From an uncultured Eubacteriales bacterium (GTDB lineage Bacteria > Bacillota > Clostridia > Oscillospirales > Acutalibacteraceae), in contig ONDU01000012.1 of assembly GCA_900316615.1 (NCBI GenBank), positions 1 through 55,184 of the forward strand: a DNA stretch of 55,184 nt. The letters run 5' to 3'. The notes under the pieces were generated by a model that was not told the DNA's origin, did no database searches, and was given only the letters and a program-made list of their open reading frames with translations. The first letter of the stretch is position 1. Each line of letters opens with the position of its first letter. The translations under genes were made by a program, and so were the position numbers. Positions 4,134 to 54,025 of this stretch are shown piece by piece.

Positions 4134-4157
4134 AGCTTTTATCCTCCTTTTTTATAG

Positions 4158-4267
4158 TTCAAGGGCTTTGCCCTTGAAAATCCCACCAAAGGCCCTGCCT
4201 TTGGAAACCGCAAGGGCTCTGCCCTTGACCCGCAAGCCTTTAAAAAGGCTTGACCTAAACCTTATGT
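4158..4267 (-). repeat. Family-2 dispersed hairpin repeat inside the thi leader
   Basis: Four adjacent stem-loops, read on the plus strand: CAAGGGC-TTT-GCCCTTG, CCAAAGGC-CCT-GCCTTTGG, CAAGGGC-TCT-GCCCTTG, and CAAGCCTTT-AA-AAAGGCTTG. On the minus strand about 83 nt match 33254-33336 with only two visible differences. The repeat lies in the 5' leader between the riboswitch terminator and the thiD ribosome binding site. Confidence 0.8.
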
Positions 4268-4343: not shown

Positions 4344-4360
4344 CGTTTACAAAAACAAAT

Positions 4361-4450
4361 CTGCTTGCTCCCTACGATAGTATTGACTAACAGGTTCAAA
4401 GGGTCAGGCAAAAAAGCCTTCTCAACTTTTTACAGTTCCCCTGCAACTTT
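4361..4450 (-). promoter_or_regulatory. TPP (thiamine pyrophosphate) riboswitch
   Basis: Read on the minus strand, the element has the THI-box landmarks: a 5' GCAGGGGAACTG, the TTGAGAAGG segment corresponding to the conserved CUGAGA, then CCCTTTGAACCTG, then a variable part ending CGTAGGGAGCAAG. UUGC/GCAA at the ends can close P1. It precedes thiD-thiC-thiE, as expected for repression by thiamine pyrophosphate. Confidence 0.9.
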
Positions 4451-4471
4451 TATGTATACAAAAAATCTGAT

Positions 4472-12937: not shown

Positions 12938-13038
12938 GGCGATTGCAGTGTCATTTTCGGTGCTACGCCCGAAAATGACAAATTCAAGCCTTGGCTTGAA
13001 TTCCGTAATCGTCTTTGCCGATTACGGCTGCAATCGCC
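12938..13038. repeat. Family-1 three-arm hairpin repeat, copy A
   Basis: The outer stem GGCGATTGCAG (12938-12948) pairs perfectly with CTGCAATCGCC (13028-13038). Inside are three hairpins: TGTCATTTTCGG/CCGAAAATGACA (12 bp), AATTCAAGCC/GGCTTGAATT (10 bp), and CCGTAATCG/CGATTACGG (9 bp). The right flank reads TGTGCTGACG. It fills most of the 195-bp gap between ispA and dxs. Confidence 0.9.
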
Positions 13039-16790: not shown

Positions 16791-16885
16791 GGCGATTGCA
16801 GACTGCGGCGGCTATGCCACCGCAAAAATTCAAGCGAATGCTTGAATTTTGTAAAAAGCGGATGCTTTTTACATCTGAAATCGCC
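16791..16885. repeat. Family-1 three-arm hairpin repeat, copy B
   Basis: The outer stem GGCGATTGCAG (16791-16801) pairs with CTGAAATCGCC (16875-16885) with one mismatch. Arms: TGCGG-C-GGC-TAT-GCC-A-CCGCA, AAAATTCAAGC-GAAT-GCTTGAATTTT (11 bp), and GTAAAAAGC-GGAT-GCTTTTTAC (9 bp). The third stem is identical to that of copy D. Confidence 0.88.
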
Positions 16886-19097: not shown

Positions 19098-19195
19098 TGC
19101 GATTGCAGCCGTCAAAAGCGTAGCTTTTGACAAATTACAAGGTTATAACCTTGTAATTTCCCCGTAAACCTTGTTTACGGGGGACTGCAATCGCA
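19098..19195. repeat. Family-1 three-arm hairpin repeat, copy C
   Basis: The outer stem TGCGATTGCAG (19098-19108) pairs with CTGCAATCGCA (19185-19195); both ends changed together, keeping the T-A pair. Arms: GTCAAAAGC-GTA-GCTTTTGAC, AAATTACAAGGTT-AT-AACCTTGTAATTT (13 bp), and CCCCGTAAAC-CTT-GTTTACGGGG. The right flank AGTGCTGACG resembles that of copy A. Confidence 0.9.
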
Positions 19196-33253: not shown

Positions 33254-33392
33254 AACATAAGGTTTAGGTCAAGCCTTTTCAAAGGCTTGCGGGTCAAGGG
33301 CAGAGCCCTTGCGGTTTCCAAAGGCAGAGCCTTTGGTCAGGATTTTTAAGGGTGTAAACACACAAGGCAGAGCCTTTGGTCAGGATTTTTAA
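33254..33392 (+). repeat. Family-2 hairpin repeat plus partial tandem copy
   Basis: Hairpins in order: CAAGCCTTT-TC-AAAGGCTTG, CAAGGGC-AGA-GCCCTTG and CCAAAGGC-AGA-GCCTTTGG. A 29-nt segment with the last hairpin and its GGATTTTTAA tail (33321-33349) is repeated exactly at 33364-33392. The main part matches 4158-4267 read on the other strand. It sits between the TROVE terminator and the tetR promoter, the bulk of a 312-bp gap without a gene. Confidence 0.85.
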
Positions 33393-33419
33393 ATGTGAAG
33401 CTTTAAGCTGAAAATTTGA

Positions 33420-34110: not shown

Positions 34111-37100
34111 ATGTTAGCTAAATTCAGTGTAAAAAAGCCTATGACGGTATTTGTAGCTGTGGTACTCGTAATAGTTCTGGGTGTAGTATCCTTTATGAGT
34201 ATGACTCCGAATTTGCTGCCGAATATGGATTTTCCTTACGTAATTCTTATGACTACTTATCCCGGAGCAAGTCCCGAGCTTGTGGAAACCGAGGTAACAA
34301 AGCCGATGGAGCAATCACTGTCTGTTCTGGACGGAGTACAGAAAATAAATTCCGGTTCCAGCGACAACTACTCTCTTGTTACCCTGAAATACGAGGACGG
34401 CACAAATATGGACAGTGCCATAGTGGATCTTAACAGCAGTATAAACACGCTTAAAGGCTCGTGGAACGATATGATAGGCACTCCTGTTATAATGAAGATA
34501 AATCCCGATATGATGCCTGCCGCCGTAGTTGCCGTAGACGTTGAAGGAATGAAAACAGTAGAGCTTTCGTCATATATAAAGAACGAGCTTCTCAACAAGC
34601 TTGAAGGTGTTGACGGTGTTGCATCAATTTCAACTATGGGCTCTGTAGAGGACGGAATAAACGTAGTAATAAACGAAGAAAAGCTAAAAAAGGTAAACAA
34701 AAAAATTCAGAAGGCTATAGACAGCAAATTTGACGAAGGAAAATCCGAATTAAATGAGGCTCTTTCAAAGCTCAACGATGGTCTTGAGCAGACCAAGGAA
34801 GGACAGAAGCAGATAAACGCAGGAAAAGATGAGCTTGAAGCCCAAAGAAAATCTGCAAGCGAACAGCTTTCTCAGGCACAGGGACAGCTCAGCGAAAAAC
34901 AGACTGAGCTTCTTAACGGGAAAATACAGATACTTAATACATTAAGCTCACTTTCAACACAGAGAACACAGCTTCAAAGCACATATGAGCAGATGGCAGG
35001 TATTCAAAGTATAATACTTGAGCTTGAAAAGAATATAAACGATATGACCGCAACCATAACTCAGCTTGAGGCATATCAGAAAACGGTCGAAAGGCTTAAT
35101 GCTGCAATGGAAACACTCTCGCCTGAGAGCGAGGAGTACAAACAGGCTCTCCAAAGACTTGAGGACATTGAAAACAGATTAAAGGAATTCGGATTTAAAA
35201 CGGCTGAATTACCCCGAAAGATAAGAGAATTCAATGAAACGCTGAACAAGCTTCAGGTATCGCTTGACAGTATGATAAAAGCCGTAACTGACAAGGGCTT
35301 TTCGGTTGAAACGTTGCAGACAGCCTTAGACGAAATGAAAAGCGGAATAGATAAGATAGATGAAGCCGTAGCTCAGCTCAATGCAACGCTTGCACAGCTT
35401 GAAGAAGGCTCTATAACACTCAACAGTGCTATGAACGAGCTTAACAAGCAGAAGGACGAGGCTGAATATAAAATGAATACTGCCTATACGGAGCTGAGAG
35501 TAAATGAAAGTACACTTGCAGCTACTCAGGCACAGCTTGAAAAAACGAAATCCGAGCTTGAGGGTTCGCTTGACACTGTAAACGAACAGCAGAAGCAGAC
35601 AAAGGATAAATCCGACGTAACCAAAATGATAACCATAGAAATGGTTTCGGGAATACTTACGGCACAGAACTTTTCAATGCCTGCCGGGTACATAACAGAG
35701 GGCGGAACAAAATATCTTGTAAGAGTAGGTGACAAGCTTGCTGACGAAAAGGAAATGAAGGAGCTTCTTCTGTTTGATATGAAAATGGACGGGGTAGACC
35801 CCATATATCTGAAAGACGTTGCGGATATATTCACAAAGGATAACTCAGACGAGATTTATGCAAAAATAAACGGAAATGACGGAGTGATGCTTTCCTTTAC
35901 AAAATCCTCACAGACGGCTGTTGCAACTGTATGTGACAATATAAAGAAAAAGCTTGACGACATAAAAGAAACCAACAGCAATTTCAACTATACAATCCTT
36001 ATGGATCAGGGTAAGTATATAAGGCTTGTTGTCGGAAACGTTCTTCAAAATCTTATTGTAGGAGCGGTATTTGCAATAATTGTACTTCTGCTGTTTCTGA
36101 GGGATTTCAAGCCTACCTTGATAGTAGCCTTTTCGATACCGCTTTCTGTCGTATTTGCGATAGTTCTTATGTATTTCAGCGGAGTTACAATGAATATAAT
36201 CTCACTTTCAGGACTTGCCGTCGGTGTCGGTATGCTTGTTGATAACTCGGTTGTTGTAATTGAGAACATATACAGACTGAGAAGTCTGGGATATTCTGCC
36301 ATAAGAGCTTCCGTAAACGGAGCAAGGCAGGTTGCAGGAGCTATAACCGCATCTACAATTACGACTGTCTGCGTATTTCTTCCTATAGTTTTCGTAGAGG
36401 GTATTACAAAGCAGATATTTGTTGACCTTGCACTCACTATAACGTATTCGCTTATGGCAAGTCTTATAGTTGCCCTTACACTTGTTCCTGCGATGGGGCA
36501 GTCGCTGTTCCGAAAAACCAGGGAGCATAAGCATGGCTTAATGGATAAGCTTCTCGGATTATATGAAAAAAGCATAAGATTTACTCTTTCACACAGACTT
36601 GTTGCACTTCTTCTTGCTTTCGTCCTGCTTGTCGGAAGTGCTGTTCTTGAATTTACAAAGGGCTTCAGCTTTATGCCCGATTCAAGCAGCAGCGAGATAC
36701 AGGTAAGTATGACTATGCCAAAGGGAAGCAAGCTTGATGATACTGTAAAAGCAATAGACAAGGTTCTTGAAACAATAAATTCCTCGGGAAAGGAAAAATT
36801 TGAAACCATAGGAGCAATGGTAGGCGGAAGCTCCGCCATAATGGGTATCGGCGGAGGTTCGGATAACGGTGCTGCGTCAGTGTACATAGTTCTCAAAGAG
36901 AATTACGCAAAGGAAAGCGGAAAAATATCGTCTGAGCTTTCGGAAAAATTCAAGAATGAATTAAGCGAGGATATAAAATTCAGCGTAGGAAGCAGCGGTA
37001 TGAGCTCAATGGCTGCACTTATGGGAAGCGGCATAGGCGTAACGGTGTTCTGCGATGACCTCGACAAGCTTCAGAAAACTGCAAACGATATTGAGGCACT

Positions 37101-38148
37101 CATCAAAAGAGTAGACGGCGTAACCGAAACCGATAACGGCATACCTGATACTACAAGCGAAATAAGAATTACCGTTGACAAGGAAAAGGCTATGGAAAAT
37201 TCACTGACCGTAGCACAGGTGTTCCAGCAGCTTTCAGGAATAATAAAAAATGAAAACAAGTCTACATCTCTTACCTCAGGGGACGGAAGCTCCATAGACG
37301 TTATGGTAATAGACGAGAATAAAAAGGAAATAGAAATCGAAGAGCTTATGGACGAAAAGCTTACTTATACAGATATGGAGGGTAAGGAAAAATCGGTAAC
37401 TCTCGGAGAAATTTCCAAAATAACCAGAGAAAAGGCTATGAATACTATTTCAAGAAAAGAGCAGAGAAGATACGTTACTGTGACTGCCGCAGTTTCCGAA
37501 TATCATACGGTGACCGAGGTCGCAAACAGCATACGGGACGTTGTAAGCTCCTATAAGCACGATTCTGATGTTTCCATAGATTTTTCGGGTGAAAACGAAA
37601 CAACAATGGAGTCTGTCGGAGAGCTTACAAAAATGCTCTTGCTGGGAGTTATCTTCATATACCTGGTAATGGTAGCACAGTTTCAAAGCCTTAAATCTCC
37701 GTTTATAGTAATGTTTACAATTCCGCTTGCGTTTACGGGTGGTTTTCTGGGACTGTTCTTTACAGGCTTTGATATAAGTGTTGTTTCGATGATAGGCTTC
37801 GTAATGCTGTGCGGTATCGTCGTTAATAACGGTATAGTTCTTGTGGATTACGTAAATCAGCTGCGTATCGGCGGTATGGATAAAAAGGAGGCTCTCGTTG
37901 AAGCAGGCAAAACAAGAATGCGTCCAATACTTATGACTGCAATTACTACAATTATAGGTCTTGTTTCTATGGCTCTCGGAATAGGCGAGGGTACCGAAAT
38001 GATGCAGCCTGTAGCTATAGTCTGCATATTCGGTCTGCTGTATGCTACGCTTATGACACTTTTTATCGTACCCGTAATGTACGATGTGATGAATAAAAAG
38101 CCTATGCGTATCGTAAACACAGAGGAACTCGAAAGTATTGACGACTGA
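34111..38148 (+). CDS. RND-family exporter with a long coiled-coil insertion
   Basis: A 1345-residue AcrB/HAE-type transporter, about 300 residues longer than AcrB. TM1 lies at 12-32, followed by an N-terminal porter domain (40-190). Residues 195-505 are a Lys/Glu/Gln-rich coiled coil with repeated QL/EL/LN heptad-like patterns. TM2-TM6 follow (IVGAVFAIIVLLLFLRDFKPTLIV...), with GVGMLVDNSVVVIENIYR in TM4 (one of the two AcrB-type acidic residues kept). A second porter half comes next, then TM8-TM12 with VVNNGIVLVDYVNQLR. Coupled to tetR 2 bp upstream. There is no membrane-fusion partner or outer-membrane channel gene, as expected for a Gram-positive; the coiled coil could span the cell wall. 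Substrate unknown. Confidence 0.9.
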   Translation: MLAKFSVKKPMTVFVAVVLVIVLGVVSFMSMTPNLLPNMDFPYVILMTTYPGASPELVETEVTKPMEQSLSVLDGVQKINSGSSDNYSLVTLKYEDGTNMDSAIVDLNSSINTLKGSWNDMIGTPVIMKINPDMMPAAVVAVDVEGMKTVELSSYIKNELLNKLEGVDGVASISTMGSVEDGINVVINEEKLKKVNKKIQKAIDSKFDEGKSELNEALSKLNDGLEQTKEGQKQINAGKDELEAQRKSASEQLSQAQGQLSEKQTELLNGKIQILNTLSSLSTQRTQLQSTYEQMAGIQSIILELEKNINDMTATITQLEAYQKTVERLNAAMETLSPESEEYKQALQRLEDIENRLKEFGFKTAELPRKIREFNETLNKLQVSLDSMIKAVTDKGFSVETLQTALDEMKSGIDKIDEAVAQLNATLAQLEEGSITLNSAMNELNKQKDEAEYKMNTAYTELRVNESTLAATQAQLEKTKSELEGSLDTVNEQQKQTKDKSDVTKMITIEMVSGILTAQNFSMPAGYITEGGTKYLVRVGDKLADEKEMKELLLFDMKMDGVDPIYLKDVADIFTKDNSDEIYAKINGNDGVMLSFTKSSQTAVATVCDNIKKKLDDIKETNSNFNYTILMDQGKYIRLVVGNVLQNLIVGAVFAIIVLLLFLRDFKPTLIVAFSIPLSVVFAIVLMYFSGVTMNIISLSGLAVGVGMLVDNSVVVIENIYRLRSLGYSAIRASVNGARQVAGAITASTITTVCVFLPIVFVEGITKQIFVDLALTITYSLMASLIVALTLVPAMGQSLFRKTREHKHGLMDKLLGLYEKSIRFTLSHRLVALLLAFVLLVGSAVLEFTKGFSFMPDSSSSEIQVSMTMPKGSKLDDTVKAIDKVLETINSSGKEKFETIGAMVGGSSAIMGIGGGSDNGAASVYIVLKENYAKESGKISSELSEKFKNELSEDIKFSVGSSGMSSMAALMGSGIGVTVFCDDLDKLQKTANDIEALIKRVDGVTETDNGIPDTTSEIRITVDKEKAMENSLTVAQVFQQLSGIIKNENKSTSLTSGDGSSIDVMVIDENKKEIEIEELMDEKLTYTDMEGKEKSVTLGEISKITREKAMNTISRKEQRRYVTVTAAVSEYHTVTEVANSIRDVVSSYKHDSDVSIDFSGENETTMESVGELTKMLLLGVIFIYLVMVAQFQSLKSPFIVMFTIPLAFTGGFLGLFFTGFDISVVSMIGFVMLCGIVVNNGIVLVDYVNQLRIGGMDKKEALVEAGKTRMRPILMTAITTIIGLVSMALGIGEGTEMMQPVAIVCIFGLLYATLMTLFIVPVMYDVMNKKPMRIVNTEELESIDD

Positions 38149-38161
38149 TGCACATACCTTT

Positions 38162-38256
38162 GGCGATTGCAGTCCACGGCGGCGAATGCCGCCGTGGAAA
38201 TTCAAGGCTATGCCTTGAATTTGTAAAAAGCGAATGCTTTTTACATCTGCAATCGC
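38162..38256. repeat. Family-1 three-arm hairpin repeat, copy D
   Basis: The outer stem GGCGATTGCAG (38162-38172) pairs with CTGCAATCGC (38247-38256). Arms: TCCACGGCGGC-GAAT-GCCGCCGTGGA (11 bp), AAATTCAAGGC-TAT-GCCTTGAATTT (11 bp) and GTAAAAAGC-GAAT-GCTTTTTAC (9 bp). It follows the exporter stop by 13 bp and may end that transcript. Confidence 0.92.
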
Positions 38257-38337
38257 AGCAGGCACGTCTGCATTGTTGATTTTAAATAATATTTAAATGT
38301 ATTATTTCAATTAATCGTACAATTTGAGCATTTACCC

Positions 38338-42110: not shown

Positions 42111-42249
42111 AGCCTGCGTTAACGCTGCTGCGATTGCAGCTGTCTGCAAACTTTGTTTGCAGACAGCTATTGAGGCTATGCCTCAATCTCCAATCAAAAG
42201 CTTTGCTTTTGATTGGCTGCAATCGCATATCTGAGCGATTACGCAGGCT
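42111..42249. repeat. Family-1 repeat, copy E, with extended outer stem
   Basis: The core (42129-42227) has TGCGATTGCAG paired with CTGCAATCGCA and three arms: CTGTCTGCAAAC-TTT-GTTTGCAGACAG (12 bp), ATTGAGGC-TAT-GCCTCAAT (8 bp) and CCAATCAAAAGC-TTT-GCTTTTGATTGG (12 bp). An extra stem AGCCTGCGT/ACGCAGGCT (42111-42119 with 42241-42249) encloses it, and TTTT follows, so here the element looks like a terminator of scrB. Most of the 292-bp gap is this element; 41987-42110 holds nothing else recognised. Confidence 0.9.
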
Positions 42250-43367: not shown

Positions 43368-43468
43368 GGCGATTGCAGATAATCCGAATATCGGATTATC
43401 GTACATATAATGCTTTGACATTATATGTACGATTTTTGCGGAAATTTCCGCAAAAATCCGCAATCGCC
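43368..43468. repeat. Family-1 three-arm hairpin repeat, copy F
   Basis: The outer stem GGCGATTGC (43368-43376) pairs with GCAATCGCC (43460-43468). Arms: GATAATCCGA-ATA-TCGGATTATC (10 bp), GTACATATAATG-CTTTGA-CATTATATGTAC (12 bp), and a perfect 28-nt palindrome starting GATTTTTGCGGAAA. It lies 26 bp from the ABC-F stop, in the 250-bp gap to the small membrane-protein gene, which has no other feature. Confidence 0.9.
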
Positions 43469-53881: not shown

Positions 53882-54025
53882 AAAAAAATCTCCTAACAGA
53901 CGCAGAAAAAGCCGACTCATTCTGCGTAAAATTTTTGCAGAAGTCATCAGCTTAAAAAAAGCGGTTTAGGATTAAAATGATTTATCCTCGGGAGAACATC
54001 ATTCCCGCAGCAATTATACTTGTTC

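Follow-up and report, generated by a model that had tools for sequence, protein, structure and literature searches.

The question raised by this locus is how a short intergenic repeat keeps the same folded form in copy after copy while much of the sequence that builds this form is exchanged. The window analysed here, i.e., the whole stretch of 55,184 bp from contig ONDU01000012.1 of an uncultured Eubacteriales bacterium (Acutalibacteraceae; GCA_900316615.1), had been reported in a preliminary description to contain six copies of 95–101 bp. All six were found where reported, and each can fold into an outer stem that closes three hairpins:

Copy 1, 12938..13038, no strand assigned: outer stem G-GCGATTGCAG/CTGCAATCGC-C with arms TGTCATTTTCGG, AATTCAAGCC and CCGTAATCG type, flanked by a polyprenyl synthetase gene and dxs on the same strand.
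Copy 2, 16791..16885, no strand assigned: outer stem with one mismatch (CTGAAATCGC) and arms TGCGGCGGC (containing one C.A mismatch), AAATTCAAGC and TGTAAAAAGC, flanked by the NAD kinase and argR genes.
Copy 3, 19098..19195, no strand assigned: outer stem with arms GTCAAAAGC, AAATTACAAGGTT and CCCCGTAAAC, flanked by a RecN-like gene (RecF/RecN/SMC domain) and the recJ gene.
Copy 4, 38162..38257, no strand assigned: outer stem, unpaired at its outermost position (G/A), with arms CCACGGCGGC, AATTCAAGGC and TGTAAAAAGC type, starting 14 nt past the end of an RND-transporter ORF.
Copy 5, 42129..42227, no strand assigned: outer stem with arms AGCTGTCTGCAAAC, ATTGAGGC and CCAATCAAAAGC, in the gap between convergent genes (GH32 family and manganese efflux).
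Copy 6, 43368..43468, no strand assigned: outer stem with one mismatch (CCGCAATCGC) and arms GATAATCCGA, ATCGTACATATAATG and GATTTTTGCGGAA type.

The earlier picture of an outer stem with three hairpins in all six copies held for the fold, but the stem is mismatched in the copies at 16791 and 43368 and unpaired at its end in the copy at 38162. For copy 5, pairing was found to extend into the flanks, with a T run closing one side. A search of the window with the outer-stem motif, allowing at most one mismatch, gave 13 matches compared to 3.2 expected, a number reached by none of 100 shuffles. At the gathering score, Rfam gave four matches in the window and none at any copy of the element. TPP and fluoride riboswitches of Rfam are present on the minus strand at window 4352–4452 and 53931–54015. 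The RND-type transporter ORF preceding copy 4 (AcrB/AcrD/AcrF family; window 34111–38148, 1345 aa) showed weak matches to other domains in the middle of the protein.

A genome-wide search for the outer stem, as proposed in the preliminary description, yielded many further copies. In the genome that contains the window (G000, a 1.83-Mb assembly), the pattern GCGATTGCAG-N70-82-CTGCAATCGC gave 124 matches, and 126 exact-stem copies were found with a spacer of N70-90, dispersed across many contigs. The N70-90 pattern also gave 126 copies in a sister species of the same genus, the rumen MAG RUG158 (G001); since some copies of the two genomes are orthologous, counts pooled over both are not independent. 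The reversed control pattern gave no match in either genome and, with shuffles also yielding almost nothing, a chance origin of the family was rejected. The exact-stem pattern had no match in four other congeners, two of them incomplete assemblies, and 396 of the 398 sampled genomes of the family were without a match. At least 75 stretches matched in a scan of a genome collection, 59 of them from RUG158; the remaining 16, from other phyla, matched at a single place each and gave no cloverleaf in a sequence-free scan, and were therefore treated as chance matches and not as true copies. No cloverleaf, four-way junction or three-hairpin repeat family was found in the literature searched, which for the most part did not include subscription journals. 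Many intergenic pieces of about 95 letters in a few gut-type bacteria can form the same four-armed cross, and its almost perfect pairing despite much change of sequence points to an element of a kind not described so far, maintained through its fold. The observation of a bacterial repeat family that keeps its shape while much of its sequence changes was confirmed, and the preliminary description had understated it.

Copies were detected by the outer stem (at most one mismatch per side) and not by their hairpins, and were then parsed for three arms, which the arm parser seeks by design. All 156 copies of a first set could be parsed, and their three arms hold at least 25 pairs (mean 30.9), compared to 3.6 in shuffled inner sequences. 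In an enlarged set of 175 copies (79 from G000 and 96 from RUG158, taken from parts of both genomes), 514 of 525 arms were perfect hairpins and 11 of 5403 arm pairs were non-Watson-Crick, which bears out the claim that nearly all arms are perfectly paired; loops of 2–4 nt, likewise expected from the window copies, were found in 442 of 468 arms of the first set. The core is about 95 bp long, or about 135 bp counting the semi-conserved flanks, and consists of an outer stem of 10–12 bp and three hairpins, mostly of 8–12 bp. Two more pairs often extend the 10-bp outer stem; these are Watson-Crick in 83 and 74 of 105 copies, respectively. No base is unpaired at the junction in 78 of 175 copies, which thus contain an ideal four-way junction, and at most two are unpaired in 109. 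The arm sequences, described earlier as differing between copies, are indeed variable but not random: by a simple motif rule, A-rich and GC-rich arms recur in 113 of 175 copies, in the order A-rich, variable middle, GC-rich, or the reverse. The outer stem is not invariant either: seven of the 175 copies carry the variant GCGATTTCAG/CTGAAATCGC, and a different paired stem closes 17 of 18 other chains of three hairpins from parts of both genomes. A one-arm hairpin bounded by the outer-stem sequence GCGATTGCA/TGCAATCGC (L137:3184) is possibly a collapsed copy.

Covariation was analysed in an alignment of 26 copies picked for similar layout, and the figures describe that subset; an earlier alignment, in which MAFFT had misaligned divergent window copies, was set aside. 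Two-sided changes were found in 128 cells and one-sided changes in two. Over the 43 pairs of the structure 99.6% were paired, compared to 29–44% for slid control structures, and none of 500 shuffles attained any of five covariation measures; ten of the 12 outer pairs were invariant. The covariation and the 78 fully paired junctions strongly support the four-way junction put forward in the preliminary description.

Comparison with RUG158 showed the element to be retained at 33 of 38 alignable orthologous loci (32 found by pattern and one by reading). Three of the five loci that lack it resemble deletions, with one half of the outer stem still in place, and the other two also lose some neighbouring DNA and are not clean insertion sites; no target-site duplication was proved at the 38 loci. 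The core of window copy 1 is identical to that of RUG158 at 99 of 99 bases within flanks of 94–95% identity, the orthologue of copy 2 carries the paired change AAATTCAAGC to AAACTTCAGGC, that of copy 3 has a paired change in its middle arm, and copy 6 is missing from RUG158 at the aligned place, together with neighbouring DNA. In 31 orthologous pairs, a count that omits a pair with a flipped insert and one orthologue whose outer stem is too altered for the pattern, 8 of 620 sites had changed in the outer ten pairs (1.3%, a rate biased low because the copies were found by that stem) and 105 of 1880 in the arm stems (5.6%), compared to 216 of 1240 at flank positions 1–20 and 279 of 1240 at positions 21–40 (17–22%). 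Loops had changed at 95 of 285 sites (33%), and junction positions, at 42 of 160, change at flank-like speed. On these rates, sequence appears to be what is retained in the outer stem and shape in the arms, whose sequence is under some constraint too, the loops being free; the constraint on the arm stems could equally come from a function in RNA. The view that shape and not sequence is conserved was strongly supported, except that the outer stem of this family is conserved in sequence as well.

Arms of homologous copies co-change and stay paired: in 87 arms with RUG158 orthologues, 25 pairs had changed on both sides and were still paired, 15 showed one-sided changes, many at arm edges, and three were otherwise changed. 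Folded as RNA from both strands, the arms contained 15 G.U among 10451 pairs (0.14%), compared to 37 of 601 (6.2%) in 48 other predicted terminators of G000, 11 of which were perfect; as parsed arms stop where pairing stops, G.U at arm bases escapes the lower figure and is counted in that for whole-core folds (67 of 14525, 0.46%). Among 2973 arm pairs of 96 tandem copies, read on the sense strand, there were two T.G and two C.A, so that G.U is not favoured in the arms. Orthologous loops differed in 56 of 93 cases, 34 of them with the same length, and nine of these 34 were exact reverse complements compared to 3.6 expected for loops drawn from the loop pool (P = 0.004; the flipped pair was left out, and with one of its loops the count is 10 of 35). 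Six of the nine would otherwise need at least three substitutions, and an inversion from CTTTA to TAAAG sits in a 97%-identical neighbourhood. Overall, 20 changed loops were nearer to the reverse complement and 12 nearer to the direct loop. Besides, the entire three-arm insert was inverted between unmoved flanks in one of 32 orthologue pairs.

Arm homogenisation and exact spacer inversion are given as marks of template switching in the available parts of two reports (PMC8604942, PMC8794818). The paired arm changes, loop inversions and insert inversion of the element may be such marks of template switching at the DNA level, and the near absence of G.U, the inverted loops and the inverted insert support the idea, already raised in the preliminary description, of an active process that remakes perfect arms. 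The paired arm changes may also be compatible with ordinary compensatory selection. Among 144 isolated perfect hairpins outside the element, selected for perfection in G000, 36 had orthologous regions and 19 were still near-perfect; none of ten same-length changed loops was exactly inverted and two were close, a difference from the element that was not significant (Fisher P = 0.09).

Families of the same shape but with other sequences were also found in two other genera. In the first (G008) the covariance model matched two places, and a pattern search gave 17 copies with the outer stem GGCGGCCG, all of which parsed with three arms, 47 of 51 arms being perfect. By ORF calls these copies are not near stop codons: 11 of 17 overlap a called ORF, and four tandem copies lie a median of 167 nt past the stop. 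In the second (G134) the model gave 63 rows, many of them both strands of a single place. Outer stems in this genome differ widely, and four other species of the genus gave no match. Scanning for cloverleaves irrespective of sequence gave 18 in 100 kb of G134 (contigs partly picked for known matches), 17 in 312 kb of G000, three looser ones in 392 kb of G097 (a different family of the same order), and none in G002 and G005 (200 kb of each), in 272 kb of twelve other genomes or in 126 kb of further samples; the scan requires perfect pairs, so that the G134 arms cannot serve as a measure of perfection. The element was not found in a screen of congeners in which ten candidates per genome were scored, an absence of little weight since the same screen missed the known G008 copies. 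CAAAA-type arms are common to G000, G008 and G134, so that the three families may be kin; their likeness could also have arisen by convergence. In 38 genomes from other families of the order, a weak match was found in two, of which the one in G097 folds as a cloverleaf and the other does not. The G097 cloverleaf (L269 / L283:10085–10183) is GC-rich with a 12-bp outer stem, and the class may extend further. Covariance-model matches in G403 (L216) and G076 (L270) were rejected as elements, their folds not being three-arm junctions; the minimum-energy fold of G115 (L237) contains no such junction either, although the perfect-pair scan found one possible cloverleaf there. The G403 region contains neighbouring CAAAAGC AAA GCTTTTG hairpins in another arrangement.

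The explanation that we prefer, and to which we give about an even chance on the basis of these sequence comparisons, is a miniature dispersed element that acts as a folded four-way junction, is re-perfected at the DNA level and is retained by selection. Template switching at the hairpins would copy one arm onto its partner, so that a mutation is quickly matched, and the same process would invert loops and occasionally the whole three-arm insert. A putative factor would recognise the sequence of the outer stem and mainly the shape of the arms. By means of a putative mobiliser the element would have multiplied within a few genomes like a miniature mobile element, and its copies, mostly just past stop codons, would now be kept by selection, so that the folded junction presumably has a useful role at these sites, either as DNA or in the transcript. 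The element may document template switching at hairpins in nature: well over 100 near-perfect sets of three hairpins are present in each of two genomes, so that joint arm changes and loop flips can be tallied and the origin of paired changes tested directly. Rather unlikely in our view is a shape-encoded mobile or regulatory element, in which the perfect junction itself, more than its sequence, would be the heritable information. A structure-specific enzyme of Holliday-junction type would recognise the folded single strand and move or use it, and template switching would keep rewriting the arms, giving families of differing sequence and the same plan in different genera. Recognition of the junction by an enzyme would make it a bacterial element identified largely through its four-way shape.

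The re-perfected DNA junction has to be weighed against readings in which RNA is the functional form. Somewhat unlikely is an RNA element located between cistrons and in 3′ untranslated regions, whose transcribed junction would protect, process or separate parts of polycistronic mRNA in a REP-like manner and whose pairing would be upheld by ordinary compensatory selection on RNA. The genomic setting speaks for it. Of 125 copies classified among the 156 (14 overlapping ORFs by mechanical calls and 17 at edges were omitted), 96 were in tandem, 20 in convergent and nine in divergent gaps, compared to 298, 56 and 67 background gaps, which include those holding copies; divergent gaps are thus depleted (Fisher P = 0.012). 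In tandem gaps the copies start a median of 39.5 nt past the stop codon (39 nt in G134). Overall, the arms of the element change less than its flanks. Window copies 1–3 lie within a cluster of polyprenyl synthetase, dxs, NAD kinase, argR, RecN-like and recJ genes, and the polyprenyl synthetase-dxs-NAD kinase-argR-recN-recJ cluster is normally one operon in Firmicutes. Three further copies were found between same-strand late genes of a phage contig (terminase, portal, head and baseplate genes), which probably belongs to RUG158 as a prophage, since it is 99.8–99.9% identical to parts of that genome; a related phage contig (86% identical) carries one copy in the same place, with arms changed yet paired and one outer-stem mismatch. 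However, selection on RNA would tolerate G.U, which is almost lacking in the arms compared to terminators and evenly matched by C.A on the sense strand, and the loop and insert inversions are DNA events. Orientation relative to the gene was 33:31 in 64 tandem copies of clear arm order, which also speaks against RNA, although a near-palindromic RNA would be indifferent to orientation. It is very improbable that the copies are intrinsic transcription terminators that have an elaborate stem and work in both directions. The T content reaches 0.45–0.48 at 24–27 nt outside the core, and a T-tract at terminator distance was found in 113 of 338 flanks (33%) compared to 283 of 1164 background windows (24%; Fisher P = 0.001), a significant though modest enrichment from which a minority of copies, such as window copy 5 with its extended paired flanks and T run, may terminate transcription. 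Still, the T-tract is missing in two thirds of the flanks and was found on both sides in 20 of 169 copies, so that most copies lack the stem followed directly by a T-tract, and the proposal that transcripts end at the copies gained no support for most of them. In addition, T is only 0.28–0.36 in the first 30 nt outside the G134 cores, and three window copies inside the polyprenyl synthetase-to-recJ cluster as well as the phage copies between same-strand late genes are difficult to reconcile with termination.

A MITE-like transposon relic without present function, the perfect arms being a mere by-product of template switching, would account for many copies in few species with none found in congeners, and for unbiased orientation, copies on phage contigs and losses resembling deletions. 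It is nevertheless improbable, as such a relic should drift like its flanks, whereas outer stems and arm stems change several times more slowly and most orthologous loci retain the element, and neither a target duplication nor a transposase was established. The RAYT-like partner considered in the preliminary description was not found: PF01797 (Y1/HUH transposase) had no match in G000, RUG158 and G008, in a search whose control matched in 5 of 14 known genomes and for which G000 was 91% complete. For an IS110 partner (PF01548) there was no match in G000 and G134, one below the cut-off in RUG158 and one with internal stops in G008. Neither Y1 transposase nor IS110 tracks the element, and neither was supported as its partner. 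SbcD, a hairpin nuclease subunit, was not found over the cut-off in G000, RUG158, G008 and G134 and was found in four of four element-free congeners, a pattern that is only suggestive because 14 of 24 element-free genomes also gave no SbcD over the cut-off. We rank the DNA-level junction element first, the RNA element second, the MITE relic third and terminators last.

The element resembles REP/BIME/REPIN-RAYT systems in its many intergenic palindromic copies per genome and in a folded single strand as the likely unit. According to the available part of one report, REPs are 20–40 bp long and tagged GTAG or CGTC (PMC3733652), whereas the element is a four-way junction of about 95 nt with variable arms, without an invariant GTAG/CGTC tag in the flank profile and without a Y1 transposase found in the three genomes searched. 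With MITEs (QMITE2, BOX, SPRITE), as described in the part available of PMC10969869, it shares a short, non-coding, intergenic sequence with inverted repeat and stable fold. The MITE features of terminal inverted repeats, short length, multiple copies (126 with the exact stem) and mostly non-ORF position (overlap in 14 of 156 copies by mechanical calls) were all found; in contrast to MITEs, its inner sequence is largely free to change if paired. A target duplication was not proved at the 38 orthologous loci, and a parent transposon was not found in the searches with PF01797 and PF01548; the element may still belong to the MITEs. Integron attC sites are recognised by their folded single-strand shape, with little sequence conservation and variable terminal structure, according to the portion available of PMC2727003, and the element likewise keeps shape over sequence. 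Nevertheless, attC sites contain an unpaired central spacer, extrahelical bases and R boxes, whereas the element cores are nearly fully paired at junctions and in arms, dispersed, and alike on both strands. Homogenised arms and exact spacer inversion are shared with the template-switch hairpins of yeast inverted repeats and rRNA, insofar as these are covered by the available parts of PMC8604942 and PMC8794818; those represent separate events in unrelated hairpins, whereas the element is a dispersed family with a fixed three-arm plan. Finally, the 92 bacterial stem-loop repeat families of PMC2267715 are also structured and mostly intergenic. In the part of that report available, the examples drawn show one stem-loop or an adjacent pair and the families are defined by sequence HMMs; of ten families with a ‘complex’ structure, dRS3 alone is drawn there. 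The element lacks the tested defining features of REP-RAYT and attC, and most copies lack those of an intrinsic terminator.

Another repeat family, likewise dispersed and about 90 bp long, carries hairpins of the CCAAAGGC..GCCTTTGG and GGATTTTTAAGGG types and was found at window 33304–33397 and 4143–4228 and at L151:8724–8820; its phage copy matches many places in RUG158, mostly with 85–97% identity. G002 (L091–L100), a congener without the element, was found to contain hairpin-rich repeats of its own (CCACTTTTTTTCAAAAAAGTGG and others), and perfect hairpins of at least 10 bp occur at 5.4 per 10 kb in G002 compared to 0.8 in G005.
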